Positions 6,319-33,489 of a stretch of DNA of 34,585 bases are shown one piece after another. The notes beneath the pieces are model-generated. The model was not told the origin of the DNA. It was given only the letters and a program-made list of their open reading frames with translations, and did not search any database. Each line of letters starts with the position of its first letter. The first letter of the stretch is position 1. A program made the translations under genes and the position numbers. Source of the stretch: Robertkochia solimangrovi (GTDB lineage Bacteria > Bacteroidota > Bacteroidia > Flavobacteriales > Flavobacteriaceae); assembly GCF_007279655.1 (NCBI RefSeq), contig NZ_QKWN01000018.1, positions 1-34,585 of the forward strand, read 5' to 3'.

Positions 6319-7152
6319 CTATTGATGATGCATGACCAATAAGGGAATGGTGATCTCATAATTGATATCCTTCAGAATGTTTCGGTTCATCAGTTTATAG
6401 AAGATATTATGTTTCCTGCTGATCAGCGCGATAAGATCTATATTGCGACTCTGCGAAAAACACTTGATCCCCATCGCAGGGTCTATACCGGTGAGTGTAT
6501 GAAAGGTGTATTCCAAACCTGTCAGGTCCTCTTCAAGTTTTTTACGGTGGTCTTCCTGTTGCAGGGTTAAGTTATCTTCTTCTCTGATATTAAGAATGCG
6601 TACCGTGGAGGTGAAATCCTTGATGAAACTTATAAACGGACTTATCTCATTCGATTTATAAGCAATATCGAAGGAGGTAGGAAAGAGTATTTCTTTAAAG
6701 CCATGGAATTCACAATTTTCAGGTACTGCAAGTATCGGGCAATCCGTAATTTTTTCCATGATGGTATACGTGTTACTGCCAATACCGAATTTACTGGAGC
6801 TCTTGATACCTCGGGTGCCCATGACAATCATATCGATACCTTTTTCTTCGGTAAGGTGATGAATCTCCTCATACAGAAAATTAATCTTTGAAATACCTTC
6901 AAAAGTATGTCTGGGATTCCTGAGCTCCGGGCGGTTGACCAGGGTCTGAATTTCAATCTGACTTTTTTCGTAAGAGATGTCATAGGCTGTGATACCGGGT
7001 TCCGGTACCATGAGATTTGCCGAGGCATAACTCACGCTGAATACATTCAGAATGAAAAATGTACATTCTTCATGTTCAAATACCTGTGTCGCATATTGCA
7101 GGGCATTCCAAGCATTCTGCGAAAAATCGGTGGGTACTAATATCCGTTTCAT
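6319..7152 (-). CDS. universal stress protein, tandem Usp domains
   Basis: Two-domain cytoplasmic Usp of 277 residues, counted from MKRILVPTDFSQNAW. An upstream ATG at 7176 would add eight residues that do not look like Usp, so I prefer 7152. The first domain has the ATP-binding pattern G-2x-G-9x-G-S (GTRGIKSSSKFGIGS) and ends in CPILAVPE. The second domain begins with EILFPTSFD and ends in IPLLVMHH but lacks the ATP motif, so it is degenerate. Near its end is a GIKCFSQS segment that is conserved in the second Usp of this window. The gene is divergent from the baeRF gene and shares a 448-base intergenic region with it. Usp proteins are induced in growth arrest, anoxia and energy limitation in many bacteria; a role here is inferred from family and context. 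Confidence 0.92.
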   Translation of the reverse strand: MKRILVPTDFSQNAWNALQYATQVFEHEECTFFILNVFSVSYASANLMVPEPGITAYDISYEKSQIEIQTLVNRPELRNPRHTFEGISKINFLYEEIHHLTEEKGIDMIVMGTRGIKSSSKFGIGSNTYTIMEKITDCPILAVPENCEFHGFKEILFPTSFDIAYKSNEISPFISFIKDFTSTVRILNIREEDNLTLQQEDHRKKLEEDLTGLEYTFHTLTGIDPAMGIKCFSQSRNIDLIALISRKHNIFYKLMNRNILKDINYEITIPLLVMHHQ

Positions 7153-7600
7153 GACTAATTCAATTTTATTCAACATTCCAATTTCTTAAAGTTACTCCCG
7201 ACAAATTTGGAATAAAATGATTTTGCTCAATAGTACAGACCAAATGACTCCGATTGGGGTAAGCATGAATAATAGATTATAAATGATTGAAAAATTTGAA
7301 TTCAGTCGGTCCTGTAAAATGTCATAAGTACCTTATAATTTGAATGCAGTAGTATTGGAGCAAACTTGAATGCGATCATTTTCAAAAATGCAGAATCAAA
7401 TAAGTTACGATCCTCTTGCAGATCCATCAATGATATTGCTCAATTCTTAGGGTTTCAAAATTTGAATTCAAGGTTAAATGTTTTATCGCAACAGATATAT
7501 ATCATTTCGCTATGGTTTACATTCTTCTATTTTTATAGGTGAACGTTCTTTAAACTGTCAGGCCAAATCCTCCTGTCGATCCGGAAATAACAGTACATAG
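7153..7600. promoter_or_regulatory. divergent regulatory region between usp and baeRF with recurring TTTGAAT motif
   Basis: A 448-base AT-rich region between two divergent stress genes. AAAATTTGAATTCA occurs exactly twice (7291-7304 and 7457-7470). Shorter relatives lie at 7339-7345 (TTTGAAT) and 7365-7371 (CTTGAAT). Spacings of about 44, 26 and 96 bases are not helically regular. No full TAnnTTTG promoter was found. The repeats could be a regulator's binding sites or chance in AT-rich DNA. No short gene was recognised. Confidence 0.4.
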
Positions 7601-8809
7601 ATGGCTAAAAGATTTGGCAGGATTACGATGTTGGATAATTTTTTAAATACGATTTTCATGGAAGCAATGAATAGAAATGAATTGATGAAATTGACAGAGG
7701 TACATGGATCGTCTTGTATAACGGTATATCTGCCTACTCAGGTTTCACGTACAGAACTTCTGGAACAAAAGAATAGTATTCTTTTAAAGAATCAGATAAA
7801 GGAGCTTTCCGAAGAACTATCAAAAAGGGCCCTGAAAGATACCGAGATCAAAGAACGGCTGCAACCATTTAATGACCTTATGAAGGATCAGGAATTTTGG
7901 AGAGATCCATCGGAAGGGATCGTGATTTTTGGGTGTGATGACTTTTTTAGGGCTTACCGACTCTCTTATATGCCGGAGATCTTTTCTTATGTAAGCAACA
8001 CATTCTTTCTGAAACCACTGATCGGTCGGTTGACGGAGAATAAGGAATATTTCATAGTAACACTGGAACTGGATGATGTTCACTTGTATGAAATAAAGGA
8101 ATCTGACATCATTGAAATTGCGATCGAAGACCTTATTCCTGAGCATATTGAGGATGTTACAGGAGCTGATTATAAGGAGAAACACCTGGAGTTCAAAAGT
8201 ATACAAGGAAATTATGAAAGAGGTATTTCTCATGGATATGGAGAAGGCAGGGAAGATAGAAAGATTGAAATTGAAAAATTTTTCAAAGCAATTGATAAGG
8301 GTATTGCAGCGTTGCTTTATGAAAGTGGTCATCCCCTGATCATTGCCGGATTGGATCATCTTCTTCCTATTTATCGAAAGGTGAACACCTATCCTAATCT
8401 TTCTGAGATCAAGCTTACTATTCATCCTTCTTCTTCCAGGATTTCCGATTTGAAGGAACAAATTGACGAGAGGATGGAGGTCACTAAAAAGCAAATTTCT
8501 GAGAAAACAGCAAGATTTCGTGACCTTGTGAATACGGATAAGACTACTGTTGAAGTAGATTCGATTCTGGAAGCCATTTTTGAAGGAAAAGTAGAGACCT
8601 TGTTTATCGAGGAAGGTATCGAATGCTGGGGGATTTACGATCCTCAGAATGGCAGATTGAGAAAGCTCGCTCATTTTGATCGGGGTAGTGCAGACCTGAC
8701 CAATATGGCGGCTATTGAGGTTTTCAAACAAGGAGGAGAAGTCTATGTGTTGAAAAAAGAGGATATGCCAGCCAACTATGCAAGCTGGAATGCAATATTA
8801 CGATACTAA
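7601..8809 (+). CDS. bacterial archaeo-eukaryotic release-factor-like (baeRF) protein
   Basis: A 402-residue protein (383 if the start is ATG 7658, 380 if ATG 7667; MNRNELMKLTEV looks like the natural beginning). It matches the baeRF group, bacterial homologues of eRF1/Pelota. The N-terminal part has SSCITVYLPT, the central part has FFKAIDKGIAALL then HPLIIAGLDHLLPIYRK and NTYPNL, and the C-terminal part has an L7Ae-like segment, ILEAIFEGKVETLFIEEG followed by CWGIYD. The GGQ peptidyl-hydrolysis motif of true release factors is absent, so peptide release is unlikely. Recently described relatives (Balon) bind ribosomes during hibernation, so ribosome protection or rescue during stress is the best inference. 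It begins a same-strand run with the PepSY-like, pfkA and esterase genes (gaps 11, 48 and 29 bases). Confidence 0.85.
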   Translation: MAKRFGRITMLDNFLNTIFMEAMNRNELMKLTEVHGSSCITVYLPTQVSRTELLEQKNSILLKNQIKELSEELSKRALKDTEIKERLQPFNDLMKDQEFWRDPSEGIVIFGCDDFFRAYRLSYMPEIFSYVSNTFFLKPLIGRLTENKEYFIVTLELDDVHLYEIKESDIIEIAIEDLIPEHIEDVTGADYKEKHLEFKSIQGNYERGISHGYGEGREDRKIEIEKFFKAIDKGIAALLYESGHPLIIAGLDHLLPIYRKVNTYPNLSEIKLTIHPSSSRISDLKEQIDERMEVTKKQISEKTARFRDLVNTDKTTVEVDSILEAIFEGKVETLFIEEGIECWGIYDPQNGRLRKLAHFDRGSADLTNMAAIEVFKQGGEVYVLKKEDMPANYASWNAILRY

Positions 8810-8820
8810 ATAGGAACATT

Positions 8821-9075
8821 ATGAAACGGTTACCGGAAAAGGCCCGCGATTATATCCGGACCCATTACAGAGAAGCATATTTGCAGAATTTACAGATTCC
8901 TTCCGCAAAAGTAAGAGGAGGTGAGGTATTCAAGGTTAAACTTTTTAAGGATAATTCCATACATAGTTTGGAGTTCAATAGTAGGGGAGAATTGTTAAAT
9001 CATACCATTGAACCAATTTATGAAGATGATTATTTTGAAAGTGACTTTTTTGATCAGGATAAATATGATTCATGA
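8821..9075 (+). CDS. small PepSY-like cytosolic protein
   Basis: An 84-residue protein that I assign tentatively to the PepSY-like/DUF2874 fold. The pattern LPEKARDYIRTHY, then a beta-hairpin with FKVKLFKDNSIHSLEFNSRG, resembles the single-repeat unit (LP..i..fi...Y.....v...gyevel.nG..l.fd..G) of that family. Unlike most members it has no signal peptide. The tail is very acidic (EDDYFESDFFDQDKYD). It sits 11 bases after the baeRF stop and 48 bases before pfkA, so it is almost certainly co-transcribed. Its function is unknown; the tight linkage suggests it may act with the baeRF protein. Confidence 0.7.
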   Translation: MKRLPEKARDYIRTHYREAYLQNLQIPSAKVRGGEVFKVKLFKDNSIHSLEFNSRGELLNHTIEPIYEDDYFESDFFDQDKYDS

Positions 9076-9123
9076 TTTTGAAGGGGGAAACATTTTCAGA
9101 TCGGTTTCAGAAAATTAATAATA

Positions 9124-10101
9124 ATGGAAAACCTGGCCATAATAACTTCCGGCGGTGATGCTCCCGGACTTAATGCATGTATCCATGCCGTGGTTAAATC
9201 TTCAGTTTTTTACGGTCTCAAGGTATTTGGGGTCAGGGACGGATTTAACGGATTGATCTCAGGAGAGATATATCCACTGCGTTTGAAAGATGTACATGGA
9301 ATCATTCCCATGGGAGGGACGATTCTGCGGACTTCCCGCAGTGAACATTTTCAAACCCGACAAGGTCGTTTTGAAGCCTATGAGCAATTGAAAAAACTGG
9401 ATATACATCAACTTATAATTATCGGTGGTGACGGAACTATGGAAGGTGCTAAAGTTCTTGCTGAAGAATACAAGAGTTTAAAAGTAATAGGGATTCCTAA
9501 AACGATCGATAATGATCTTGAAGGAACCGAATATTCCATAGGATTTGATACTGCACTGAATACAGCAGTAGATGCAATCGACAGGATCAGAGATACCGCT
9601 GAGTCTCATAATCGTATATTTTTAGTGGAAGTCATGGGAAGGGATGCCGGCTATATCGCTTATGGTAGTGGCTTGGCAACAGGTGCAGAAGGTATTTTAA
9701 TTCCCGAAACTTCCATGGATATGGAATGCCTCCAACAAAGTTTATCGGAACATTATAATACAGACCGTGCCCTTATTATCGTTGTTGCCGAAGGTGATGA
9801 AGGTGGAGGTGCGATGCGATTGAAGGAAGACTTGAGTCAATTATTGCCTGATCGTAATATTCGGGTTACAATTCTAGGACATATTCAAAGAGGAGGGAAA
9901 CCTACTGCGTTTGATAGAATACTGGCCACAAGGTTTGGAATTTTTGCAGTAGAGACACTTTTGAAAACACAAGGGAATGCCATGGTGGGGATGTATGAAG
10001 GAAGTCCTCGTTTAATCCCTTTTTCACAAATTCATAAAAGAAATATGAAACTTGATGATAATGATGTTAAGGCTATTGAAATATTGACATTTCAGGTTTG
10101 A
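9124..10101 (+). CDS. pfkA: 6-phosphofructokinase, mixed ATP/PPi signature
   Basis: A 325-residue phosphofructokinase of family A length, cytosolic, phosphorylating fructose 6-phosphate. Motifs: ITSGGDAPGLNA at 7-18, GGDGT at 101-105, PKTIDND at 125-131 with catalytic Asp129, MGRDAGYIA, and LGHIQRGGKPTAFDR. Position 104 (E. coli numbering) is Gly, which favours ATP as donor. The residue equivalent to E. coli Gly124 is Lys126, a feature of pyrophosphate-dependent and group III enzymes. ATP use is the better guess, because Asp at 104 is what usually blocks ATP. Its place in a stress gene run rather than with glycolysis genes suggests a second, condition-specific PFK, as with PfkB in the mycobacterial dormancy regulon. 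Whether another pfkA exists in the genome cannot be seen here. Confidence 0.92.
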   Translation: MENLAIITSGGDAPGLNACIHAVVKSSVFYGLKVFGVRDGFNGLISGEIYPLRLKDVHGIIPMGGTILRTSRSEHFQTRQGRFEAYEQLKKLDIHQLIIIGGDGTMEGAKVLAEEYKSLKVIGIPKTIDNDLEGTEYSIGFDTALNTAVDAIDRIRDTAESHNRIFLVEVMGRDAGYIAYGSGLATGAEGILIPETSMDMECLQQSLSEHYNTDRALIIVVAEGDEGGGAMRLKEDLSQLLPDRNIRVTILGHIQRGGKPTAFDRILATRFGIFAVETLLKTQGNAMVGMYEGSPRLIPFSQIHKRNMKLDDNDVKAIEILTFQV

Positions 10102-10130
10102 ATCATCTTTCGAACTCAAAAATATAGTGT

Positions 10131-11468
10131 ATGCTCACCGATGTTGGAAAATATAAAAGATTGTGGCAAAGTCAGGTCATTGCCAAAGTAAAGGAACAGG
10201 CTGTAGAACTTAAGAGTATGTCTGATCTGGATGGAATTATGAACCGTATAGGGAATGCCCGATATGTTCTGCTGGGAGAGGCTACTCATGGAACCCATGA
10301 ATTTTATGTGTGGAGAGCGTTGCTTTCCCAACGTTTGATCAGGGAAAAAGGATTTTCTTTTATCGGTGTTGAAGGCGATTGGCCGGATTGTTATCGTATC
10401 AACAGATTTGTTAAGAATTATTCAGATACCGGTGAGAATGCCTATGATGTTATACATGATTTCAGAAGATGGCCAACCTGGATGTGGGCGAATTGGGAAA
10501 TCATTGGGTTGATGAATTGGTTAAGAGTCTATAATGAAAGAAATTCACAATCGTTGAAAGTTGGTTTCTATGGTCTGGATGTATATAGTCTGGGAGAATC
10601 ACTGGAAGCTATTCTGAACTATTTGGAAAAATATGATATCACCGCTTTTGATAAGGCAAAAGAGGCCATTTCATGTTTTGAGCCTTTTGGTTTTGAGGGT
10701 TCTGATTATGCAAGGGCTACCCGAAGACTCGTACCTAAAACCTGTCAACGCGAAGTTATCGATCTCTTGACTGAGATCCGTCGTAAGATCACCACCTTTA
10801 ATACTGATCCTGAATCAGTTTTCAATGCCGAGCAAAATGCGCTTGTGGCAGTTAATGCCGAAAATTACTATCGGACAATGATCGGTGGAGGGCCGGAGTC
10901 ATGGAATATCCGCGACCGGCATATGGTTACTACATTGGAACGGTTGATGAATTTTCACGGAAATAAAGCTAAAGCGATTATTTGGGAACACAATACCCAT
11001 ATCGGCGATGCCAGAGCAACAGAGATGAGTGCACATGGAATGGTAAATGTAGGGGAACTTCTTTCAGGATCTCACGCTCGGGACGATGTCGTTAAGATTG
11101 GATTTGGTACTTATGAAGGCACTGTGGTTGCCGGACATCACTGGGGAGATGTAATGAGAATTATGAAGGTTCCTAAAGCCAGAGATGCGAGTTGGGAAGA
11201 TATACTACATGCTGCGGGTGATGGCAAAAACGTTGCTTTTGCCACCGATCGATGGAAAGATGATCCATTGTTTGAACATCCCATAGATCACCGTGCTATT
11301 GGGGTAGTCTATAATAATGACAGAGAGCATTATGGTAATTATGTGCCTAGTATAATTCCTTATCGGTATGATGCTTTTATTCATATTGATAGTACCGAAG
11401 CCTTACATCCCGTCCATATAAAACCTGATGGTCATCAGATGCCGGAAACATTTCCCTGGGGATTTTGA
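10131..11468 (+). CDS. erythromycin esterase family protein
   Basis: A 445-residue protein of the EreA/EreB/ChaN-like family. Catalytic motifs are LGEATHGTHEF (Glu50, His53), VEGDWPD (Glu81) and WEHNTHIGDAR (Glu286, His287, His290), matching the Glu/His set known for EreB. No signal peptide is present, so it is cytosolic. Chromosomal members like this are usually not macrolide resistance genes. A related domain is joined to a phosphoribosyltransferase in mycobacterial Rv2030c of the DosR regulon, and here a phosphoribosyltransferase gene is the next gene, convergent, 134 bases away. The gene closes the baeRF-PepSY-pfkA run (29-base gap). The natural substrate is unknown. Confidence 0.9.
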   Translation: MLTDVGKYKRLWQSQVIAKVKEQAVELKSMSDLDGIMNRIGNARYVLLGEATHGTHEFYVWRALLSQRLIREKGFSFIGVEGDWPDCYRINRFVKNYSDTGENAYDVIHDFRRWPTWMWANWEIIGLMNWLRVYNERNSQSLKVGFYGLDVYSLGESLEAILNYLEKYDITAFDKAKEAISCFEPFGFEGSDYARATRRLVPKTCQREVIDLLTEIRRKITTFNTDPESVFNAEQNALVAVNAENYYRTMIGGGPESWNIRDRHMVTTLERLMNFHGNKAKAIIWEHNTHIGDARATEMSAHGMVNVGELLSGSHARDDVVKIGFGTYEGTVVAGHHWGDVMRIMKVPKARDASWEDILHAAGDGKNVAFATDRWKDDPLFEHPIDHRAIGVVYNNDREHYGNYVPSIIPYRYDAFIHIDSTEALHPVHIKPDGHQMPETFPWGF

Positions 11469-11602
11469 TTTACCCTCGTTGTGCAGTTTTGGTTCCACCT
11501 TTCGAAATCATGAGGTATGAATGTCGGTGAATTTATAGTTTGGAAAAAGATACACCGGAATTCAGGAGTTCGATATATCTTATAGTTCAGTGTGACCCTG
11601 GT

Positions 11603-12271
11603 TCAGGGTATAGCACGGTCGGTTTTGGTGGTGTTATTCTTGTTAGGATTGCTGAATGTTTGTAATAGTCTGATCGCTTCTGAATCTGAAACGGGTAAAA
11701 AATTGTGATAATAGGAGCCAACTGCGTTAAAGTTGTAGGGAGTGATTAAGGAGATCATCTGGTCTACATAAGGCGATTGGCTAATTTTTTTTTGAGCAGA
11801 AACGGATGAGACTGGTACAGCTATAATAATTTTATCGGGATCTTCCCGGGCAAGCAATGCTACAGTCGCCAGGATCGTATTGCCTGTAGCAATACCGTCG
11901 TCGGTTACTATCAGCGTTTTACCTTTCAGATTTACAGGAGTATTTCCCTGATAGTACATTTCCATTTTTTTCTGCAGATCCCTATGGATTTTACGGGTCT
12001 CTTCATCGATATAGGAGGAAGGTATTTGTCCTGCTTCCGCTCCCAAAACAGTGCTGTTGAGACTAACTGCTCCGATGGCAAATTCCTTATTTAAAGGATG
12101 TCCGATCTTTTTTGATAATACCACATCCAAAGGCAGATGGAGTAGTTCAGCAATTGCAGCTCCTATCGGAAGACCACCCCTTGGTATTGCGAGTATTACA
12201 GCATCCGAACCTTTATAATATTTAAGTTTCCGCGCCAATTTTTTTCCGGCATCTTTTCTGTCAGTGAACAT
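11603..12271 (-). CDS. phosphoribosyltransferase family protein
   Basis: A type I phosphoribosyltransferase-fold protein of 222 residues when started at ATG 12271 (MFTDRKDAGKKLARKL). A longer frame starting at 12319 would overlap the preceding gene and adds residues unlike the family. The PRPP-binding loop is IVTDDGIATG at 121-130. AIPRGGLPIG at 28-37 and KKIGHP at 54-59 are typical of the stress-associated PRTase subfamily often joined to dienelactone hydrolase or erythromycin esterase domains. Its start is 11 bases after the hydrolase gene's stop, so the two are co-transcribed. Whether it is a real transferase or a PRPP/nucleotide-sensing protein is unknown. Confidence 0.88.
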   Translation of the reverse strand: MFTDRKDAGKKLARKLKYYKGSDAVILAIPRGGLPIGAAIAELLHLPLDVVLSKKIGHPLNKEFAIGAVSLNSTVLGAEAGQIPSSYIDEETRKIHRDLQKKMEMYYQGNTPVNLKGKTLIVTDDGIATGNTILATVALLAREDPDKIIIAVPVSSVSAQKKISQSPYVDQMISLITPYNFNAVGSYYHNFLPVSDSEAIRLLQTFSNPNKNNTTKTDRAIP

Positions 12272-12282
12272 AATTATAAATT

Positions 12283-12930
12283 TTAGATTATCAGATATTT
12301 TTGAAACCATGCAATACATAGTTGTGTAACGATCTCCAGTTTTCCCGATTCCTGAAAAAGGTGTGACGCTTCCGGCACAATTTCTAATTTTGAATACCCG
12401 CCAAACTTAGGCAGTACCGATCGATTTAAGGCGATCACTTCCTGATCCCATCCCCCTACGATCAATAATACCGGAGCCGGTACCGAGGCTAATTTTAGAT
12501 CATCTGCAAGGTCAGGCCTGCCCCCTCTGGAAACGATTGCCTTTAATTTCAGGTCGCTGTTAGCGGCCGCATTAAGGGCGGAAGCCGCTCCGGTACTTGC
12601 TCCGAAATATCCTATCGGTAATCTCGCGATATCTTTTTGTGATCGTATCCATCGGGTAGTATCCTTCAGGCGTTTAGAAAGTAAAGGAATATCGAATCGG
12701 TTGCTGTAAAATTTGTCTTCTTCCTCTGTCAACAGGTCAAAAAGTAAGGTAGCGAAACCCTGATCGTTCAACGATCTTGCCACATAATTGTTTCGTGGGC
12801 TTAAACGACTACTTCCACTACCATGAGAAAAAATTACCAGTCCGACCGGATTATCAGGAATCGCCAAAACCCCTTTAAGGATTACATCATCAACCGGAAT
12901 ATTTAAATCGGTGACTGTTTGTGTTTTCAT
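12283..12930 (-). CDS. dienelactone-hydrolase-like alpha/beta hydrolase
   Basis: A 215-residue alpha/beta hydrolase with a complete catalytic triad: nucleophile Ser112 in GASTG, Asp161 in GGWDQEV and His189 in EASHLF. The oxyanion-region motif FSHGSGSS at 34-41 fits the DLH-like group. No signal peptide. In other bacteria this hydrolase and the phosphoribosyltransferase that follows here are frequently one polypeptide; here they are two genes with an 11-base gap. It lies 34 bases downstream of the second universal stress protein, giving an operon usp-hydrolase-PRTase on the minus strand. The true substrate is unknown. Confidence 0.88.
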   Translation of the reverse strand: MKTQTVTDLNIPVDDVILKGVLAIPDNPVGLVIFSHGSGSSRLSPRNNYVARSLNDQGFATLLFDLLTEEEDKFYSNRFDIPLLSKRLKDTTRWIRSQKDIARLPIGYFGASTGAASALNAAANSDLKLKAIVSRGGRPDLADDLKLASVPAPVLLIVGGWDQEVIALNRSVLPKFGGYSKLEIVPEASHLFQESGKLEIVTQLCIAWFQKYLII

Positions 12931-12964
12931 CTGTGTTTATTATTAAGGTTATTGGATGTTCTTT

Positions 12965-13864
12965 TCAGGACACACGCTCTCTGGTGACAGCATCCTTTTT
13001 AGGTTTCAGAACTTTCGTATTTTGGTGCAAGACCATGATCGGAATAGCTGTGCGATAACTAACCCCTTTAAGGGTTGATTTATGAGCAATGGATTCAATA
13101 AATGAATGCTTTTTATACACAAAAACGATCAGGTCTGCATTATGGCTTTGGGCAAAACATCCAATTCCATTCGCTTCGTCAAAATTTACCAGAGTATGAA
13201 ATTGATGTGGAATCCCATTAAGAGCTGAAGAAATACGTCTTCTACAGTATAACTGGTCTTCATTAAGTTCCTTTTTTTGGTCTTGAACATGTAATAGCCT
13301 TACATGACAATGGAAATCTTTTAACAATTCCAATAGGGGATAAATGTTTTCTTCCCGGACAGGATCACAAAAATCTGTTGGCATTACTACTTCCCGGATG
13401 CCCTTATATTCCCAATGCTCAGGAATGGCAAGTACCGGACATGTAAATGTTGAATCCAAAATTTTTAAAGCGGTACTTCCAAAATAGATATTTAGTATCC
13501 TTTTAGCACCTTTGGTACCAAGGATGATCATATCGATATGATTAGTTTTTACCGCTTCTTTAATGACATCAATTATAAATCCGGTACGTAAAAGTGGTTC
13601 AAATTCATGTTTGGGATTTTTGTACTGGTTCAACCTGTGAATGAGCTTCATGAGCTCCACCTTTGCCTTTTTTTCCTTGTCAGGATCTGGTATGTAGGAA
13701 TCGATTTTAAGTCCGATCATTGGGACAGATTCATATTCAAGAGGTTTTAACACATGCAGTAGATAAAATTCAGTTTCCTCAAAGGCAAAAGCTTCAGAGG
13801 CATAACAACTTGCATCCCATGCATTCTTTGAAAAATCTGTCAATATCAATATTCTTTTCATCAT
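12965..13864 (-). CDS. universal stress protein, tandem Usp domains (second copy)
   Basis: A 299-residue two-domain Usp. The first domain has RILILTDFSKNAWDA at its start and the ATP motif G-2x-G-9x-G-S in GTKGAKRILNIYFGS, ending CPVLAIPE. The second domain starts REVVMPTDF and ends IPIMVLHQ without the motif. It carries GIGCFAQSHNADLI (Cys236), closely matching the segment of the first Usp, so the two are paralogues. It has a basic 20-residue C-terminal tail that the first lacks. It is the first gene of the usp-hydrolase-PRTase operon. A 12-bp inverted repeat lies upstream at 13909-13952. Confidence 0.92.
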   Translation of the reverse strand: MMKRILILTDFSKNAWDASCYASEAFAFEETEFYLLHVLKPLEYESVPMIGLKIDSYIPDPDKEKKAKVELMKLIHRLNQYKNPKHEFEPLLRTGFIIDVIKEAVKTNHIDMIILGTKGAKRILNIYFGSTALKILDSTFTCPVLAIPEHWEYKGIREVVMPTDFCDPVREENIYPLLELLKDFHCHVRLLHVQDQKKELNEDQLYCRRRISSALNGIPHQFHTLVNFDEANGIGCFAQSHNADLIVFVYKKHSFIESIAHKSTLKGVSYRTAIPIMVLHQNTKVLKPKKDAVTRERVS

Positions 13865-13908
13865 TCGTTGTTTTTAGGTTATCATGGTATTTTAATAAAA
13901 TAGCCGGA

Positions 13909-13952
13909 AGTGATCGGACTCTTGGAAATAGGATTAAAAAAGTCCGATCACT
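13909..13952. repeat. 12-bp perfect inverted repeat with 20-base loop
   Basis: AGTGATCGGACT at 13909-13920 and its exact reverse complement at 13941-13952. It lies between the secreted PepSY-like gene and the second usp gene, both on the minus strand, 45 bases upstream of the usp start. There is no T-run after the stem on either strand, so it is not a standard terminator. It could be an operator or an RNA structure in the usp leader. Confidence 0.6.
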
Positions 13953-13978
13953 GTAAGTGTTCTCGTTTTAGCACATCG

Positions 13979-14476
13979 TTACAGAAAGTTCCCTTCATCA
14001 TCGATTTTTATCCGGATCAGTTGATCGCCGTTCTCCAGTTTTACTTTATAAAACTTTGTGCTTCTGTTTTTGGCATCGTTATACGTAACCTTATAAACAT
14101 CTTTTTTGACCTCCCATCCGGGAAAACGTTGATCGATAGCATTTTTTACAGTGGTTGGAATTGCAATGTTCTCGAACCTTTCTATAGTTCTTAAAACATT
14201 TCCTTCGTTATCGTAAAGCGCAACGATCTTGCCTTCAGGGATATAGAAGGAGATGGTGTAGGTGTCATATTCATCACTGTATAGTTCAGAATTCTTCAGA
14301 TCAAAAGTGGCTACCTTTTCTTCGAGAAGTTGAACAGGCACGGCAGCTTCATAACCTACACTCTGCATGTATTTATAATTGGCTGCACTAACAACAACCT
14401 CAGACAGTTTAACAACCTGTGCGCTGAGGGGGATGGTTAATCCCAGAATCATCAAACCTAACAATATTTTTTTCAT
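13979..14476 (-). CDS. secreted PepSY-like protein
   Basis: A 165-residue protein with a Sec signal peptide (MKKILLGLMILGLTIPLSAQ, cleavage near residue 20). The second half resembles a PepSY-like unit: IPTTVKNAIDQRFPGWEVKK, then a hairpin with FYKVKLENGDQLIRIKIDDEG. The first half has a degenerate related pattern (YTISFYIPEGKIVALYDNEGNVLR). Such proteins are abundant and uncharacterised in Flavobacteriia. It is divergent from the class II ribonucleotide reductase gene and upstream of the stress operon, from which the 13909-13952 inverted repeat separates it. No function is assigned. Confidence 0.75.
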   Translation of the reverse strand: MKKILLGLMILGLTIPLSAQVVKLSEVVVSAANYKYMQSVGYEAAVPVQLLEEKVATFDLKNSELYSDEYDTYTISFYIPEGKIVALYDNEGNVLRTIERFENIAIPTTVKNAIDQRFPGWEVKKDVYKVTYNDAKNRSTKFYKVKLENGDQLIRIKIDDEGNFL

Positions 14477-14730
14477 GACATTGAAAATTAAAAGGTTATT
14501 ACTTTATCGATTGAATTTCGATAATTACGGTTAATACTGAAATGATTTTAATCAATTACTATTACCCTGGATACCTTTACGATTGAATTTTTAAAACGCA
14601 TCCATCTTTGTGATAGAGAGACTTTTATTAAAAAATATTATGGCGTAATTTTAAAAGACGCTGAGTTCACCGAAGTAGTTTATTGAACATAAGGGTACAT
14701 CGTTATCCGGTTTAGAAATATTAGGGTATC

Positions 14731-16449
14731 ATGGGAAAATTCACCGATAATGCAATGGAAATATTGCGGGAGCGCTATTTATTGAAGAATGAATCGGGAT
14801 CGGTCACAGAATCCCCCACGCAGTTATTCAAAAGAGTTGCCCGATGTATTGCTTCTGCGGAATCTGAGAACCGATTGCATTGGGAGGAGAAGTTTTATAA
14901 TCTGATGAGCGCTCGGTATTTTCTTCCTAATTCACCTACCTTGATGAATTCCGGACTGGAAAAAGGTCAGTTGAGTGCCTGTTTTGTCCTACCTGTAAAC
15001 GATAGTCTTGAAAGTATCTTTACAACTTTAAAAAACACGGCATTGATACATCAAAGCGGAGGAGGTACGGGATTTAATTTCTCAGACCTGAGGCCCGCCA
15101 ATGATTTGGTCTCTAATAGATCGGGTACATCCTCCGGCCCTTTAGCATTCATGAAATTATTTGATGCTGCGACTGAATACGTCAAACAAGGCGGAAGACG
15201 CAGAGGAGCCAATATGGGGATACTTAATGTGAATCATCCGGATATAAGGGAGTTCATCACTTTGAAGTCAGAAGCGGGAGTACTTCAGAACTTTAATCTT
15301 TCGGTGGGTATGACCGATGACTTCATGAAGGCTTTGAAAGGAAACGGGATCTGGAATCTGATAAACCCAAGAAATGGTGAAATCATGAGCGAGGAAAGCG
15401 CCCATAAGATTTGGGATCTTATCATTGATCAGGCATGGCAGACAGGTGATCCTGGTATGGTGTTCTTAGATTCGATCAATGCCGATAATCCTATTCCTGC
15501 TCAGGGTAGAATTCTTAGTACCAATCCATGTGGTGAGGTTCCGTTATTAAATTATGAAAGCTGTAATCTCGGATCGGTGAACTTATCGCTGATCACTCGA
15601 AGTAAAGGGGATGTAGTTCATATCGATTGGCAAAGGCTGGAAGAGATCATTACTTTGGCTGTTCGGTTTTTGGATAATGTAATCACGGTCAACCATTATG
15701 TCATTCCGGAAATTAAAGACATTACCCGTAGGAACAGGAAGATCGGACTGGGTGTTATGGGGTGGGCTGAATTACTAATCCAACTGGAAATACCTTATGC
15801 CTCCATACAGGCGGTTTCTCTTGCTGAAGACCTTATGCGATTCATTCAGGAAAGGAGTTTAAACGCCTCCCGTGAACTGGCGGTTGAAAGGGGAGTGTTT
15901 CCAGGCTGGAAAGACAGTACCTATGCCGGAAAAATGCCTTTGAGGAACGCGACTGTTAATAGTATTGCACCTACGGGATCTATTTCAGTGCTAGCAAATA
16001 CCTCTTACTCCATAGAGCCTTTGTATGCCGTTGCCTTTAATAGAAGCGGAATTCTGGGAGATAGAACACAAACGGAAATAAACCATCTTTTTATAAAAAA
16101 GATGAATAAGGTGGGAAGGTGGAACAGCAGGATTTATGAAGAACTCTTATCCGGTAAATCCATTAAGGATATTCCTGATATACCCGATTCTTTTATAAAA
16201 GTATTTCAAACCGCACAGGAGATTCCATGGGAGTTTCATTTAAAACATCAGCAAGCATTCCAGCGTTATACGGATAATGCAGTATCAAAGACTATCAATC
16301 TACCCACCAATTCTTCCCCAGCCGATATTTCAAATATTTACCTGACTGCATGGGAATATGGTTTGAAAGGAATCACTATTTATCGTGAGGGTAGTAAGTC
16401 AGGACAAGTGTTACGAAAGTGTAGTTTAGGACTAAATCAGACTTGCTGA
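14731..16449 (+). CDS. nrdJ: adenosylcobalamin-dependent (class II) ribonucleotide reductase
   Basis: A 572-residue single-subunit reductase of the NrdJ/NrdZ type, making deoxyribonucleotides without oxygen and needing coenzyme B12. Seen: the substrate-site motif FLPNSPTLMNSG at 64-75, Cys84 and Cys278 (NYESCNLGS) as the redox pair, thiyl Cys267 in NPCGE, GLGVMGWAEL, and PTGSIS with the following S/NTSYSIEP segment. The C-terminus ends with two cysteines (Cys564 and Cys572), a likely shuttle to thioredoxin. There is no N-terminal ATP-cone, so activity-level allostery is probably missing, and no NrdB-like gene adjoins it, consistent with class II. The 254-base upstream gap holds two copies of CGATTGAATTT (14508-14518 and 14580-14590); no B12 riboswitch was recognised. 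In the dormancy comparison it corresponds to NrdZ. Confidence 0.88.
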   Translation: MGKFTDNAMEILRERYLLKNESGSVTESPTQLFKRVARCIASAESENRLHWEEKFYNLMSARYFLPNSPTLMNSGLEKGQLSACFVLPVNDSLESIFTTLKNTALIHQSGGGTGFNFSDLRPANDLVSNRSGTSSGPLAFMKLFDAATEYVKQGGRRRGANMGILNVNHPDIREFITLKSEAGVLQNFNLSVGMTDDFMKALKGNGIWNLINPRNGEIMSEESAHKIWDLIIDQAWQTGDPGMVFLDSINADNPIPAQGRILSTNPCGEVPLLNYESCNLGSVNLSLITRSKGDVVHIDWQRLEEIITLAVRFLDNVITVNHYVIPEIKDITRRNRKIGLGVMGWAELLIQLEIPYASIQAVSLAEDLMRFIQERSLNASRELAVERGVFPGWKDSTYAGKMPLRNATVNSIAPTGSISVLANTSYSIEPLYAVAFNRSGILGDRTQTEINHLFIKKMNKVGRWNSRIYEELLSGKSIKDIPDIPDSFIKVFQTAQEIPWEFHLKHQQAFQRYTDNAVSKTINLPTNSSPADISNIYLTAWEYGLKGITIYREGSKSGQVLRKCSLGLNQTC

Positions 16450-16518: not shown

Positions 16519-16530
16519 TGATAATTATCA
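16519..16530. promoter_or_regulatory. 12-bp palindrome upstream of the Mla-type operon
   Basis: TGATAATTATCA is a perfect palindrome 74 bases before the MlaE start. The identical 16-mer AAAATGATAATTATCA also precedes the ABC export operon (palindrome 23803-23814). It resembles a compact Fur-superfamily box, but the regulator is not known. Confidence 0.5.
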
Positions 16531-16604: not shown

Positions 16605-17387
16605 ATGATTAGTATATCGACATCAGATAACCGAATAAAGCAGTTTTTCATCCAGATCGGTGAAATCTCCTTTTTCGCAGGTAGATTTTTTAAAGAATCT
16701 GTCAGACCTCCCTATGAAATTAATGAATTTTTAAGGCAATGCTATAATGTAGGGAATCGGTCAGTTCCATTGGTTAGTATCACTGGTTTTATAATCGGAC
16801 TCGTACTTACGTTACAAACAAGACCAACGCTGGAAGAGTTTGGTGCAGTTTCCTGGATGCCGGCGATGGTAGGGATCTCTATAGTTCGGGAGATTGGTCC
16901 TGTGGTGATCGCTCTTATTTGTGCCGGACGTATCGCTTCAGGCATGGGGGCTGAACTGGGATCAATGAGGGTGACCGAGCAGATCGATGCTATGGAGGTA
17001 TCCGGAACAAATCCATTTAAATACCTGGTGGTGACTCGTATTCTGGCCACTACATTTATGGTGCCGATATTGGTTATATATGGAGACGCATTGGCGTTGT
17101 ATGGCTCATTTTTAATTGAAAATATCAAAGGAAATGTGTCTTTTACCCTATACTTTAATCAGGTTTTTAATTCTTTGGAATTCGGAGACCTGATTCCGGC
17201 GACGATCAAGACTTTCTTTTTTGGATTTGCGATCGGACTCGTTGGGTGTTTTAAGGGATATAATACCAGAAAAGGAACGGCAGGAGTCGGATTGGCAGCG
17301 AATAGTGCCGTGGTAATGGCTTCGATGCTCATATTTTTACTGGATTTTGTAGCGGTTGTTATTTCCGATATTTTCTATGACCTCTAA
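16605..17387 (+). CDS. mlaE: MlaE-type ABC transporter permease
   Basis: A 260-residue inner-membrane permease of the MlaE family, which moves phospholipids between inner and outer membranes. Typical features are the internal signature GISIVREIGPVVIALICAGRIASGMGAELGSMRVTEQ (given here only as spanning residues about 89-123, with the key REIGPV and AELGSM pieces), EQIDAMEV, and about five hydrophobic segments. It is the first gene of a three-gene operon with 14 bases to the ATPase. An AAGGAG stretch lies at 16574-16579, too far from the ATG (about 25 bases) to be a usual ribosome-binding site. No MlaB/MlaC partner is present, as is usual outside Proteobacteria. Confidence 0.9.
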   Translation: MISISTSDNRIKQFFIQIGEISFFAGRFFKESVRPPYEINEFLRQCYNVGNRSVPLVSITGFIIGLVLTLQTRPTLEEFGAVSWMPAMVGISIVREIGPVVIALICAGRIASGMGAELGSMRVTEQIDAMEVSGTNPFKYLVVTRILATTFMVPILVIYGDALALYGSFLIENIKGNVSFTLYFNQVFNSLEFGDLIPATIKTFFFGFAIGLVGCFKGYNTRKGTAGVGLAANSAVVMASMLIFLLDFVAVVISDIFYDL

Positions 17388-17401
17388 GGTACTTTATAAG
17401 G

Positions 17402-18157
17402 ATGAATGCCTCTGAAACACATAGCGAAACTGAGATCATCAAAATCAGAGAACTGAAAAAGCGATTCGGCCAGAATCGGGTGCTTAATGGTTTTAATATG
17501 ATCCTTTATAAAGGAGAGAACCTTGTAATAATGGGAAAATCAGGGTCCGGGAAATCTGTACTGATAAAATGTATGGTCGGACTTGAAAAAGCGGATAGTG
17601 GTTCAATTGAAATGATGGGTAAAGATATTACGTCACTGGATAAGGAAGCGTTCAACGAACTCAGAGCGGATATCGGATTTTTGTTTCAGGGCAGTGCCTT
17701 ATATGATTCTATGAGTGTGCGGGAAAACCTGGAATTTCCGTTACGAAGGCATAAACATCGATTCGGTAAAGAGGTGAAAACGGATAGTTTAGTGCATGAG
17801 GCGCTGGAGAATGTTGGACTTTCTCATGCTATAGATCTGATGCCTGATGAATTGTCAGGAGGGATGAAAAGAAGAATTGCACTGGCGCGAACTTTAATCA
17901 TGAGACCTAAGATCATTTTTTATGATGAACCTACCAGTGGTCTGGATCCTATTACCTCTAAAGAGATTATTGAACTGATCATGAACATTCAGGATAAATT
18001 TGAGACTTCCTCCCTGATCATAACGCATGATATTGATTGTGCCCGCGTTATTTCAGACAGGATGATCTTATTAGTGGAGGGTATAAATTATGCCGAAGGA
18101 ACTTTTAATGAATTAACGAAAATGACCGATCCTAAGGTTAGGGCATTTTTTAAATAG
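17402..18157 (+). CDS. mlaF: MlaF-type ABC transporter ATP-binding protein
   Basis: A 251-residue cytoplasmic ATPase powering the MlaE permease. Walker A is GKSGSGKS at 45-52. The ABC signature is LSGGMKRR, whose Met-Lys replaces the usual Gln and is characteristic of MlaF-type ATPases. Walker B is IIFYDEPTSGLD and the switch histidine is in IITHD. It follows the permease by 14 bases and precedes the MCE protein by 6 bases, so all three are co-transcribed. Confidence 0.92.
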   Translation: MNASETHSETEIIKIRELKKRFGQNRVLNGFNMILYKGENLVIMGKSGSGKSVLIKCMVGLEKADSGSIEMMGKDITSLDKEAFNELRADIGFLFQGSALYDSMSVRENLEFPLRRHKHRFGKEVKTDSLVHEALENVGLSHAIDLMPDELSGGMKRRIALARTLIMRPKIIFYDEPTSGLDPITSKEIIELIMNIQDKFETSSLIITHDIDCARVISDRMILLVEGINYAEGTFNELTKMTDPKVRAFFK

Positions 18158-18163
18158 TGAGTC

Positions 18164-19156
18164 ATGGCAAAATCAATTTCTGAGAAGATATGGCTTGGCG
18201 TACTGGTAGTTTTGGGAACAATATTTCTGGTTGTTGCGGCTTACCTAATTGGAAGTCAGCAGAATCTTTTTAGCAAATCCTTTAGTATCAGTGCCAGATT
18301 TAATAACGTAAATGGATTGCAACCCGGGAACAATGTGCGATTCTCCGGAATCGATGTAGGTACGGTTAAATCATTGATCATAGAGAACGACTCAACCATT
18401 GCCGTGGTCATGATGATTAATCTGGATGTCAAAGAGCATATAAAAAGAGATGCTATCGCTACCATAGGATCTGATGGCCTTGTCGGAAATATGGTGGTGA
18501 ATATTTTACCGGGTAAAGATTCTTTAGTTCCGGTAAGCGATGGAGATTTCATACAGTCCTATAGCCGAATCGGGACAGACGATATGTTGAATACCCTGAA
18601 TATGACCAATGAAAATGCGGCTTTGCTGACCTCAAACCTATTGAAGGTTTCTCAATCATTGGTCCAGGGTAAAGGTACGTTGGGACGTCTTCTCAATGAT
18701 ACCTTACTGGCTAATGATCTTCAGAAAACCATAGCCAATTTAAAGATCGCAACTGCAAACCTCAATATCTCAATAGCCAAGTTCAACCAAATCATCGATA
18801 CCATTTCTATCGAGAATAGTGTCGCAGGTGTATTATTAACGGATACTCTGGCAGCAAATAAGATGAAACGAGTGATTGATAATTTGGAATCTTCTTCGGG
18901 TGTTTTAGATTCTACTTTGACCTCTATCGATATGCTGGTTAGAAATATAGAGCAGGGGGAAGGAGCCGTAAATTACCTGACTACCGATACGCTTCTGGTA
19001 AAACAACTCGAGGCCACCATTGATCATATAGAGGAAGGCACCGATCGTTTCAACCAGAATATGGAGGCATTAAAACATAATTTTCTCTTTAGAAAGTACT
19101 TTAAAAAGCTGGAAAAGGAAGAAGAAAAGCGGAAAGCCCTGGAGGAGAATAATTGA
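18164..19156 (+). CDS. mlaD: MCE-domain (MlaD-like) lipid transport protein
   Basis: A 330-residue periplasmic protein anchored by one N-terminal helix (residues about 10-27). The MCE domain spans about 36-117, including FNNVNGLQPGNNVRFSGIDVGTV and IGSDGLVGNM, split here for length. After it come three imperfect repeats of the type G-LL-DT-LA--L---I-NL: around GRLLNDTLLANDLQKTI, GVLLTDTLAANKMKRVI and NYLTTDTLLVKQLEATI. They probably form helical or coiled-coil segments of the hexameric channel. The tail is highly charged (LEKEEEKRKALEEN). It closes the operon, and its stop is 32 bases from the end of the convergent L,D-transpeptidase gene. Confidence 0.9.
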   Translation: MAKSISEKIWLGVLVVLGTIFLVVAAYLIGSQQNLFSKSFSISARFNNVNGLQPGNNVRFSGIDVGTVKSLIIENDSTIAVVMMINLDVKEHIKRDAIATIGSDGLVGNMVVNILPGKDSLVPVSDGDFIQSYSRIGTDDMLNTLNMTNENAALLTSNLLKVSQSLVQGKGTLGRLLNDTLLANDLQKTIANLKIATANLNISIAKFNQIIDTISIENSVAGVLLTDTLAANKMKRVIDNLESSSGVLDSTLTSIDMLVRNIEQGEGAVNYLTTDTLLVKQLEATIDHIEEGTDRFNQNMEALKHNFLFRKYFKKLEKEEEKRKALEENN

Positions 19157-20153: not shown

Positions 20154-20537
20154 TTACAGGTATTTGCTTAAAAAGTCAAAAAATCGTCTTTTATGATCGT
20201 TATAAATGTTTCGCTGCGTTGCCATTTTATCCCGCATTTCCTGATGATATTTCAAAGCGACTCTGTCAATAGAATCTTCATGAGCCAAATACTGTCCTGC
20301 AATCCGCTGTTCATGAGCTTCAATCGCTGCTTGTAATTCTTCGATTTTACCCTTTTGCAAAATAAAATGCTGTTCGAATTGTCCCATTTCTACCAAAACC
20401 TCAGGGTTGGTCCATCTATTTTGGATTTCATCCAACCTGTTCAAAAAAGAATGAATCTCGTCTAACCAAAATAGAATTTCATTTTCCCATAGATGGTGCT
20501 CGAAATGTAAGTCTGAATTATAGATGATCTTTTCCAT
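20154..20537 (-). CDS. His-rich all-helical protein, function unknown
   Basis: A 127-residue protein without signal peptide. It contains nine histidines (residues 11, 14, 15, 29, 57, 75, 86, 98, 115) spread along a predicted all-helical, highly charged chain, including an HxxxE pattern at 14-18. The spacing recalls a four-helix metal-binding bundle such as hemerythrin, but I cannot align it convincingly to that family. A 14-bp palindrome (20544-20557) lies just upstream of the start. It lies 65 bases upstream of the L,D-transpeptidase start on the same strand, so co-transcription with it is possible. Confidence 0.6.
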   Translation of the reverse strand: MEKIIYNSDLHFEHHLWENEILFWLDEIHSFLNRLDEIQNRWTNPEVLVEMGQFEQHFILQKGKIEELQAAIEAHEQRIAGQYLAHEDSIDRVALKYHQEMRDKMATQRNIYNDHKRRFFDFLSKYL

Positions 20538-20557: not shown

Positions 20558-20643
20558 TAATTTATTTGTAATCAAAGCTTTTTAAAATGATATAAATCAA
20601 TTCAACCTTCATGGATATTCATAATGTGGTAAGGGGAAGTAGT

Positions 20644-20737: not shown

Positions 20738-21406
20738 TTATTTTAAGATCCGTCCATCCTCCATTTCGATGATACGATCCGTGCGTTTGGCGAAATCCAT
20801 ATCATGGGTAACGATCAAAAGACTAAGACCCTGTTCCTCTTTTAATCGTTTAAAGATCTGCAAAACATTTTCTGAATTATAGCTATCGAGATTACCCGTG
20901 GGCTCATCTCCCATAAGGATCGTCGGATTATTGATCAGGGCTCGTGCAATCGCTACCCGTTGTTTTTCTCCACCGGATATTCTGCTCGCCTTTTTATCGG
21001 CAAGATGCTCTATATGCAACATCGATAATTTTTCAAGGGCGTCGTTTTGTATCTCCGTATTTGATTTCTTGCCAAGCTTTTTGGCTGGTAACATCACATT
21101 TTCCAGTACACTGAATTCTGAAAGCAGATAATGAAACTGAAACACAAATCCGATATGTTCGTTCCTAATGCGGGATAATTCCGTGGTTTTCTTGCCGGTG
21201 ATCAGCTCCTCATTCAGATAGAGTTGTCCGTCATATTCGGTATCCATTGTCGACAATATATACAGCAAGGTAGATTTCCCGGAACCCGATTTACCGATGA
21301 TGGAAACGAATTCGCCAGAACGGATATCAAAGGAGATATCATGAAGAACGTGGTATTTGACAGGCTTCATGAAGTATTTATTGATATTTTTTGTACTTAA
21401 AACCAT
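20738..21406 (-). CDS. ABC transporter ATP-binding protein (LolD/MacB type)
   Basis: A 222-residue ATPase of the MacB/LolD branch. Walker A is GKSGSGKST, the signature is ISGGEKQRVAIARA, Walker B is LMGDEPTGNLD, and the H-switch is in VTHDMD. It is the last gene of a three-gene minus-strand operon, 10 bases after the permease stop. It powers the neighbouring FtsX-like permease in a mechanotransmission-type exporter. A hairpin follows 68 bases downstream. Confidence 0.9.
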   Translation of the reverse strand: MVLSTKNINKYFMKPVKYHVLHDISFDIRSGEFVSIIGKSGSGKSTLLYILSTMDTEYDGQLYLNEELITGKKTTELSRIRNEHIGFVFQFHYLLSEFSVLENVMLPAKKLGKKSNTEIQNDALEKLSMLHIEHLADKKASRISGGEKQRVAIARALINNPTILMGDEPTGNLDSYNSENVLQIFKRLKEEQGLSLLIVTHDMDFAKRTDRIIEMEDGRILK

Positions 21407-21416
21407 TGCTTCTGAA

Positions 21417-23802: not shown

Positions 23803-23814
23803 TGATAATTATCA
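23803..23814. promoter_or_regulatory. 12-bp palindrome upstream of the ABC export operon
   Basis: TGATAATTATCA, 47 bases upstream of the adaptor start on the minus strand. It is the same palindrome as at 16519-16530, and the shared 16-mer AAAATGATAATTATCA is in the same plus-strand orientation in both places. Confidence 0.5.
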
Positions 23815-25495: not shown

Positions 25496-25500
25496 AACGG

Positions 25501-25529
25501 CAAAAGTAATTAATTATTCACAATGTCAA
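25501..25529 (-). promoter_or_regulatory. oxyR promoter, TTG-N18-TAnnTTTG
   Basis: On the minus strand the -33 TTG is at 25529-25527 and the -7 element TACTTTTG at 25508-25501, with an 18-base spacer. This is a close match to the Flavobacterium consensus. The -7 element is only 5 bases from the ATG, so the transcript may be nearly leaderless. Confidence 0.6.
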
Positions 25530-25531
25530 TG

Positions 25532-25544
25532 TTATCATAGATAA
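25532..25544. promoter_or_regulatory. candidate OxyR operator
   Basis: Inverted repeat TTATC-ATA-GATAA in the oxyR-katG divergent region. It abuts the -33 of oxyR and lies about 43-56 bases before the likely katG transcription start, a normal site for an activating LysR-type protein. Binding is inferred. Confidence 0.4.
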
Positions 25545-25573
25545 TATCGTTTTTATAAATAAAATCAAGGTTC

Positions 25574-25581
25574 TATGTTTG
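25574..25581 (+). promoter_or_regulatory. katG -7 promoter element
   Basis: TATGTTTG matches TAnnTTTG exactly, 105 bases before the katG start codon. No TTG sits at the expected -33 distance, which is consistent with a promoter that needs an activator. Confidence 0.5.
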
Positions 25582-25665
25582 CGCCCGAATTAAAAAAACA
25601 CTTATGGATCTGCAGGTATCATCTTTCTAAAATCGGGGAGTGTACAAGGTTTATAGGGCTTTTAA

Positions 25666-27966
<2,301 letters not shown>

Positions 27967-29761: not shown

Positions 29762-29805
29762 TTTAAATACTGTTTCTTTACTTGACATTGGTTTGGGGTA
29801 TAATT

Positions 29806-29813
29806 CAAAGTTA
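29806..29813 (-). promoter_or_regulatory. -7 element of the TPR-AraC gene
   Basis: On the minus strand this reads TAACTTTG, an exact TAnnTTTG match, 18 bases upstream of ATG 29788 and 45 upstream of ATG 29761. It argues against a start at 29842. A -33 TTG at standard spacing was not found. Confidence 0.5.
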
Positions 29814-33488: not shown

Positions 33489-33489
33489 T

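Follow-up and report, generated by a model that had tools for sequence, protein, structure and literature searches.

A probable low-oxygen survival island with a TGAT-N4-ATCA operator in Robertkochia solimangrovi, convergent with the mycobacterial DosR regulon

Does a cluster of stress genes in the flavobacterium Robertkochia solimangrovi form a dormancy regulon comparable to the DosR regulon of Mycobacterium tuberculosis, and which regulator could control it? The question is raised by a stretch of 34,585 nucleotides (NZ_QKWN01000018.1; hereafter the window), the entire contig 7 of a 4.4-Mb genome in 23 contigs, which encodes universal stress proteins (Usp), a baeRF protein, a phosphofructokinase (PFK), a protein of the erythromycin-esterase family (EreA), a phosphoribosyltransferase (PRTase), a dienelactone-hydrolase-like protein (DLH) and a class II ribonucleotide reductase (RNR), NrdJ. 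From the sequence alone, these genes had been read as a portable survival module resembling the DosR regulon, with a regulator that would be new. Our analysis indicates that the window probably contains an island, spanning about 6.3-23.8 kb, of a Bacteroidota low-oxygen survival regulon with the operator TGAT-N4-ATCA, convergent with DosR; which protein binds this operator, and whether oxygen is the signal, is less certain than the regulon with its operator.

The operator was identified by an unsupervised count of dyads in intergenic DNA around a candidate regulator, a response regulator composed of a receiver, a cNMP-fold domain and a CRP helix-turn-helix (receiver-CRP), encoded on contig 4 of the same genome. 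Across 14 loci from other genomes and three sequences of the source genome itself, TGAT-N4-ATCA occurred 35 times against 1.3 expected, and in 46 further regulator loci 48 times against 1.8, with TGAC-N4-GTCA ranked second in the latter set (23 versus 0.4 expected); both dyads were outside the best 18 listed for 13 background loci chosen around EreA. A 22-bp matrix trained on 55 sites from the 14 other-genome loci only placed its four best sites of the window (20588, 23803, 16519 and 14543) in intergenic DNA, which makes up 10.8% of the window; the fifth-best, at 11426, falls within ereA. At a score of at least 15, the matrix found 63 sites, 57 of them intergenic, in the 46 non-training regulator loci (905 kb), and none in 19 EreA loci (328 kb). 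A shared upstream motif, which the sequence-only reading had suggested looking for, does exist.

The genes of the island, with families called by Pfam and NCBIfam scores against curated cut-offs, and its operators are as follows:

6319..7176, minus strand: usp1, double-length Usp with the domain in its first half (PF00582, 66.3 bits, cut-off 24)
7177..7600: divergent promoter region of usp1 and baeRF-84aa-pfkA-ereA, 424 bp, with weak operator-like sites
7601..8809, plus strand: baeRF protein (PF18849, 108 bits, cut-off 27; also PF18845/PF18848)
8821..9075, plus strand: 84-aa orphan protein, no Pfam/NCBIfam match
9124..10101, plus strand: ATP-dependent 6-phosphofructokinase of the PfkA type (PF00365, 353 bits; NF002872, 383 bits)
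10131..11468, plus strand: erythromycin-esterase-family protein of the EreA/Rv2030c C-terminal-domain type (PF05139, 376 bits)
11603..12319, minus strand: PRTase (PF00156, 66.5 bits)
12283..12930, minus strand: DLH alpha/beta hydrolase (PF01738, 23.9 bits, cut-off 21, weak)
12965..13864, minus strand: usp2 (PF00582, 72.2 bits, cut-off 24)
13979..14476, minus strand: secreted PepSY-like protein (PF11396, 23.7 bits, under the cut-off of 28.3)
14543..14554: operator TGATTTTAATCA between pepSY (minus) and nrdJ (plus), 177 bp before nrdJ (score 15.0, strict match)
14731..16449, plus strand: nrdJ, adenosylcobalamin-dependent class II RNR (TIGR02504, 669 bits, cut-off 400)
16519..16530: operator TGATAATTATCA, 75 bp before mlaE (score 16.9, strict match)
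16605..19156, plus strand: mlaE, ABC ATPase and mlaD, lipid transport (PF02405, PF00005, PF02470)
20154..20537, minus strand: 127-aa helical protein with a paralogue (45% identity) in the contig-4 island
20588..20599: operator TGATATAAATCA, 51 bp before 20154-20537 (score 17.1, strict match)
20738..23755, minus strand: hlyD-ftsX-ABC exporter operon (PF16576/PF13437, PF02687/PF12704, PF00005)
23803..23814: operator TGATAATTATCA, 48 bp before the hlyD operon (score 17.1)

The ten genes of the sequence-only reading lie where it put them, and the families it assigned are borne out by the profile scores. Its span of 6319-16449 holds these genes but is too short: the natural unit extends past 16449, since operators of the same class precede 16605-19156, 20154-20537 and 20738-23755, the last ending at 23814. 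The two Usp genes, which it took to be in tandem, are 5.8 kb apart. Two probable runs are baeRF-84aa-pfkA-ereA (gaps of 11, 48 and 29 bp) and prt-dlh-usp2 (PRTase and DLH overlapping by 37 bp, DLH and usp2 34 bp apart); pepSY, 114 bp upstream of usp2, possibly heads a pepSY-usp2-dlh-prt run. Between pepSY and usp2, a hairpin at 13913-13953 (AGTGATCGGACT...AGTCCGATCACT, -21.9 kcal/mol, z -5.5) is possibly a processing or attenuation element. A scan with the sigma-70 consensus, which is not the Bacteroidota promoter type, found 48 matches versus 58.6 expected.

Ten places in the genome carry the strict form of the operator, WTGATWWWWATCAW: the window has three and the contig-4 island two, one more precedes a flavodoxin-like open reading frame (named by eye), and the other four fall inside open reading frames. 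The location of five of the ten within the two islands' 50.6 kb has a binomial probability of 5e-8, for a pattern that was shaped with the sites already known; of the unshaped TGATNNNNATCA, the window holds seven copies where 2.0 are expected (P 0.005). The usp1/baeRF gap holds three of the 22 window sites scoring at least 6.5, and its weak sites lie at 7493 (AGATATATATCA, 10.9), 7431 (TGATATTGCTCA, 8.8), 7367 (7.6) and 7218 (6.5). The core at 7431, TGATATTGCTCA, is found again before hsp20 in the contig-4 island (L060:10289; L numbers denote loci and G numbers genomes, with G000 the source genome).

NrdJ provides a second anchor. Its best solved relative is the B12-dependent RNR 1xjk, and its score against TIGR02504, the NrdJ/NrdZ equivalog, places it in class II; it is an additional RNR, since two more RNR large-subunit genes are present elsewhere in the genome. 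The protein is rare in the family (9 of 249 genomes, E<=1e-100), and the receiver-CRP regulator is found in all eight other NrdJ genomes versus 4 of 20 controls lacking NrdJ (Fisher 1.6e-4, a value that, like the other Fisher value given here, overstates certainty because related genomes are not independent). In seven of these eight genomes the regulator gene lies 2.9-17.1 kb from nrdJ, and in all eight an intergenic matrix site heads nrdJ or its co-directional run. Usp and/or PRTase plus DLH are encoded within 10 kb of nrdJ in three of the eight. The labeled genes at the nrdJ loci are:

L178: Usp, Hsp20, regulator
L180: regulator, Usp, PRTase, DLH, Hsp20
L184: DLH, PRTase, PfkB
L179: Hsp20
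L181, L182: Hsp20 and kinase
L183, L185: no labeled island gene

At L184, the PfkB-family kinase (7249-8202) adjoins DLH, PRTase, SDR and NrdJ; the window has PfkA instead. That PfkA and PfkB stand in for each other in the same slot may point to selection for function rather than to shared ancestry.

A genome-wide Usp search located the second island (L060, G000:C4:1-16000), where a Usp gene adjoins genes for a PAS histidine kinase and the receiver-CRP protein. Next come genes for Hsp20, for a LOG-like protein, for a larger DLH protein and for a member of the old-yellow-enzyme family. The island also encodes paralogues of the 84-aa (38% identity) and 127-aa proteins and of the window's KatG (67%). 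The contig-4 island is the probable source of the regulator pair for the window island. The claim that the regulator would be new can be made more precise, and the reading of a regulator both new and unknown was dropped, since a candidate pair can be named on contig 4. The PAS domain of the kinase has FixL as its best solved relative (E=7.6e-13), followed by other haem-PAS sensors such as DosP; 10jx, a multi-sensor kinase, matches at similar strength. FixL's proximal histidine (His200) has an aligned counterpart in 50 of the 52 partner kinases, and 39 of the 52 match both it and Arg220. The source genome's kinase is one of these 39 and, judged by residue conservation alone, is of the FixL type (a haem-PAS domain carrying both the proximal His and the distal Arg). 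Sensing of oxygen via a haem-PAS domain is therewith a plausible property of this kinase. Degenerate intergenic repeats of the TTACTGCATTACTG / GTAACCTGTAACAG type were noticed by eye beside this island, at L060:10330-10560 and L060:12060-12560. Adjoining Hsp20, L060:9277-9717 encodes a member of a 146-aa helical family that has no Pfam match and recurs in 6 of 60 regulator loci, as well as in L178, L179, L180 and L184.

The regulator is present in 56 of 395 genomes of the phylum (E<=1e-45), and all 60 of its places in other genomes were examined. A co-directional kinase gene is adjacent in 52 of the 59 loci where the regulator open reading frame was recognized. Within 20 kb, the 60 loci contain Usp in 28 cases, Hsp20 in 13, cbb3 oxidase in 20, HemN in 14 and beta-CASP proteins in 10, compared with one Usp and none of the other four in 19 EreA background loci, the families having been verified with Pfam; Usp or Hsp20 is found in 33 and cbb3 oxidase or HemN in 25 of the 60. 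PRTase (2 of 60) and EreA, DLH and baeRF (1 of 60 each) are thus occasional regulator neighbors and not core ones. Such cases are G235 (L150), where EreA, PRTase and DLH, and G145 (L126), where baeRF, Hsp20 and MlaE, are encoded no more than about 9 kb from the regulator. The regulator occurs in 11 of 27 EreA genomes versus 45 of 368 others, lineage effects included. Beside the regulator, a protein with an ATP-cone and an Mrr-type nuclease domain adjoins a beta-CASP RNase-like protein in L099 (6221-7066, assigned by Pfam) and in L102, L105, L178 and L179 (assigned by blastp or by eye).

The same operons carry sites elsewhere. Homologues of mlaE/ATPase/mlaD adjoin the regulator in L109, L129, L134 and L147, and those of hlyD-ftsX-ABC in L100 and L105 (51-76% identity); sites precede mlaE in L109, hlyD in L105, nrdJ in L178 and L180, and ereA in L033 and L048/L150, while baeRF in L126 is preceded by two strong sites. 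Among 39 relatives, baeRF is found in two (G011 and G017), both of which carry the regulator. A search of genome contigs with baeRF gave 54 pattern stretches, none of them confirmed. In the survey of neighborhoods, six of the 40 listed plasmid matches, from 178 records, were examined.

The baeRF translation contains neither GGQ, as had been noted from the sequence, nor NIKS, and its domain scores above the curated cut-off, as expected for the Balon-like baeRF superfamily. It matches 8rd8 over residues 29-392 (phmmer E=4.9e-7) and falls below the cut-off of the Balon (AOC03_06830) equivalog NF052287 (104.6 versus 330 bits); we regard it as a putative Balon/Rv2629-like ribosome hibernation factor. 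An AlphaFold model built with five sequences was unusably poor (mean pLDDT 56, pTM 0.39). A role of EreA as a macrolide-resistance enzyme was considered and dropped: its scores are far under the NCBIfam EreB and EreD cut-offs and hence give no evidence for such an enzyme.

In the proposed mechanism, the FixL-type PAS kinase of contig 4 would phosphorylate the receiver-CRP response regulator, which, once activated, would bind palindromes of the form TGAT-N4-ATCA that lie some 50-75 bp ahead of start codons, or 177 bp in the case of nrdJ. The activated regulator would turn on nrdJ, pepSY(-usp2-dlh-prt), mlaEFD, the gene of the small helical protein and the hlyD-ftsX-ABC exporter, and usp1 and baeRF-84aa-pfkA-ereA would probably be switched on via weaker sites. 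NrdJ would then give an O2-independent dNTP supply, and the products together may rest ribosomes (the Balon-like baeRF), sustain glycolysis and DNA repair anaerobically and maintain the envelope.

Several observations weigh against this interpretation. The sites in the usp1/baeRF promoter region are all sub-consensus, and usp2 itself is preceded by no site, a strong hairpin lying between it and pepSY. In G011 and G017 the surroundings of baeRF lack a strong site, and no site scoring at least 11 precedes ereA in L034, L037-L040 and L043, though all these genomes hold the regulator. The Usp cluster of contig 19 also has no strong site; this locus of the same genome (L059, G000:C19:207500-227400) has genes for four double Usps alongside those of thioredoxin, DnaJ and MerR_2 proteins. 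The strict pattern was picked after the sites had been seen, and its census in 30 genomes gave a weak contrast (one-sided P 0.038), with 153 strict versus 39 control matches in regulator genomes and 235 versus 140 in regulator-less ones, the latter thus holding many strict matches too. Finally, two FNR-type paralogues in the genome share the ESxIR recognition-helix residues of the receiver-CRP protein, and one of them lies next to the cbb3 operon, which has similarly shaped sites.

The last observation leads to a rival in which the regulon is real and its switch is the FNR-type regulator beside the cbb3 oxidase on contig 11 or else a further CRP/FNR paralogue, with receiver-CRP acting on other targets. 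The FNR-type protein (L189:6879-7616) has paired N-terminal cysteines and is encoded beside cbb3 and HemN genes, near which lie the same-shape sites TGACATTTGTCA, TGACAATTATCA, TGACATTTATCA and TGACAATTGTCA. However, the half-sites differ: among sites scoring at least 12 in 70 sequences, TGAT/ATCA is present in 37 of 65 island-gene sites versus 0 of 8 cbb3/HemN sites (Fisher 0.002), the sites at the source genome's cbb3/HemN genes being of the TGAC class. Moreover, the receiver-CRP gene, and not just an FNR gene, is physically linked to nrdJ in seven of eight genomes. We therefore hold this rival to be unlikely, though attribution to one binding protein is uncertain because ESxIR is common to all three paralogues; the half-sites suggest two overlapping circuits, with TGAT-class island sites and TGAC-class cbb3/HemN sites. 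A chance neighborhood of unrelated stress genes on one contig would agree with the exact ten-gene set not having been found elsewhere and with the EreA neighborhoods, in which, contrary to the conserved surroundings expected from the sequence-only reading, PRTase or DLH appears in 3 of 20 and baeRF in 1 of 20 (20 of 28 places in other genomes, several of the stretches being only 3.6-5.6 kb long). Against this stand the clustering of half the strict genome matches in two islands and the conserved linkage of nrdJ with the regulator (within 18 kb in 7 of 8 genomes), Usp, PRTase and DLH, which make coincidence quite improbable. The idea of a portable survival module is supported in this respect by the co-clustering around nrdJ in relatives, but one fixed ten-gene block is not conserved.

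Least probable of all, and hardly credible to us, is true homology, in which the DosR regulon and its regulation would have come as one unit, by inheritance or by transfer. DosR is a NarL-type regulator, its kinases DosS and DosT carry GAF domains, the Dos-box palindrome has the core GGGACTNNNGTCCC, and the regulon responds to hypoxia, NO or CO. A scan of the window for this box found 33 matches with at most three mismatches versus 47.2 expected, none with fewer than two mismatches, and neither a NarL-type DosR regulator nor a GAF kinase was present among the window proteins scanned, the rest of the genome not having been searched for a DosR homologue. Membership in the DosR system, as opposed to resemblance, finds no support, given the lack of Dos-box excess, the different operator and a candidate regulator from another family paired with a PAS kinase. 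PFK families also differ, the fusions are absent and gene order is unconserved. What speaks for homology is the shared set of Usp, PRTase, EreA, PFK (PfkB in a sibling island), NrdJ and baeRF, as far as the accessible parts of the mycobacterial descriptions go (PMC4410610, PMC4428469, PMC10901736).

Three further features of the window lie outside the island. Positions 24557-27966 hold a KatG catalase-peroxidase gene divergent from that of a LysR-type regulator; KatG was rejected as a regulon member, its upstream gap having no site scoring at least 6.5 and the LysR gene being divergently adjacent, and the lack of an island-type operator contrasts with the region of the KatG paralogue on contig 4. 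Positions 1706-3457 (minus strand) encode a protein of unusual make-up, in which an XRE-type helix-turn-helix is joined to DUF4870 and to a beta-lactamase/serine-hydrolase domain, and at 29697-34467 a large LRR/Ig protein that bears a type IX secretion signal adjoins a PorP/SprF protein.

Among known systems, the closest comparison is with DosR itself. Its core, according to the accessible text of PMC4428469, comprises Usp, alpha-crystallin chaperones, nitroreductases and hibernation factors, while NrdZ belongs to its periphery; the operon Rv2028c-Rv2031c encodes Usp, a PfkB-type kinase, a PRTase-EreA fusion and HspX (PMC4410610, in the part available), and Rv2629 is described as a hypoxia-induced Balon homologue (PMC10901736, likewise). 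Of the DosR member families, the window has Usp, PRTase, EreA, NrdJ and a PFK of another family, contig 4 has Hsp20, and L184 has PfkB. To judge from these partial sources and PMC5069765, both systems share Usp, phosphofructokinase, PRTase/EreA, class II RNR and a Balon homologue, as well as, here presumably, two-component hypoxia control, with Hsp20 and nitroreductase in sibling islands; no nitroreductase was found in the source genome's two islands. The Bacteroidota island differs in regulator family, operator and kinase sensor domain (receiver-CRP, TGAT-N4-ATCA and PAS), in the unfused PRTase and EreA and the replacement of PfkB by PfkA in the window, both as the sequence-only reading had it, and in the inclusion of the MlaEFD and HlyD-FtsX-ABC operons. 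With Balon/Rv2629, as described in the accessible part of PMC10901736, the window baeRF shares the fold family, the absence of GGQ/NIKS and the stress-gene neighborhood; it differs in falling under the equivalog cut-off, and no RaiA gene was recognized in the island.

Titles and abstract openings of the literature, subscription papers and preprints being outside the scope, gave no recognizable account of such a regulon in Bacteroidota. Similar designs are described in other phyla. The low-oxygen-activated (lxa) locus of Burkholderia cenocepacia is a large island with six Usps, phosphofructokinase, heat-shock, BON and metallo-beta-lactamase-fold proteins, and Hsp20, BON and beta-CASP proteins likewise recur beside the Bacteroidota regulator, whereas RNR, PRTase and esterase are unnamed in the accessible description of lxa (PMC6127331). 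In NmpRSTU, the oxygen-utilization regulon of Myxococcus xanthus, genes for Usp, cbb3 oxidase and HemN are likewise under a two-component system, but its regulator is of the NtrC type, and the available portion of its description does not mention RNR or esterase (PMC11841059). The microaerobic FixL-FixJ/FixK control of rhizobia shares the FixL-type PAS kinase and a CRP/FNR-type output near cbb3/hemN genes; there, FixJ switches on a separate fixK (PMC9104804, accessible part), whereas in Bacteroidota the receiver is fused to the CRP module. Under anoxia, Sphingopyxis granuli upregulates nrdZ by up to 365-fold (PMC6472365), and OsdR is another comparable case (PMC5069765), both as given in the text available.

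If correct, our interpretation predicts that Bacteroidota have their own equivalent of the mycobacterial dormancy regulon, for which kinase, regulator, operator and genes can all be named and which is open to study in harmless aquatic strains. The roles of Balon-like proteins and of the puzzling EreA/PRTase/DLH trio would likewise become accessible to testing in non-pathogens. A broader generalization, which we offer tentatively and would not rate quite at even odds, is that a largely common oxygen-loss kit (Usp, Hsp20, Balon-type ribosome rest, PFK, PRTase/EreA/DLH and class II RNR) has been plugged into the sensors available in different phyla, in Bacteroidota a FixL-type kinase and receiver-CRP acting on TGAT-N4-ATCA, apart from an FNR/cbb3 circuit using TGAC-N4-GTCA. 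By analogy, the Bacteroidota island would not be a member of the DosR system but would work like it, and like the lxa, NmpRSTU, OsdR and S. granuli cases.

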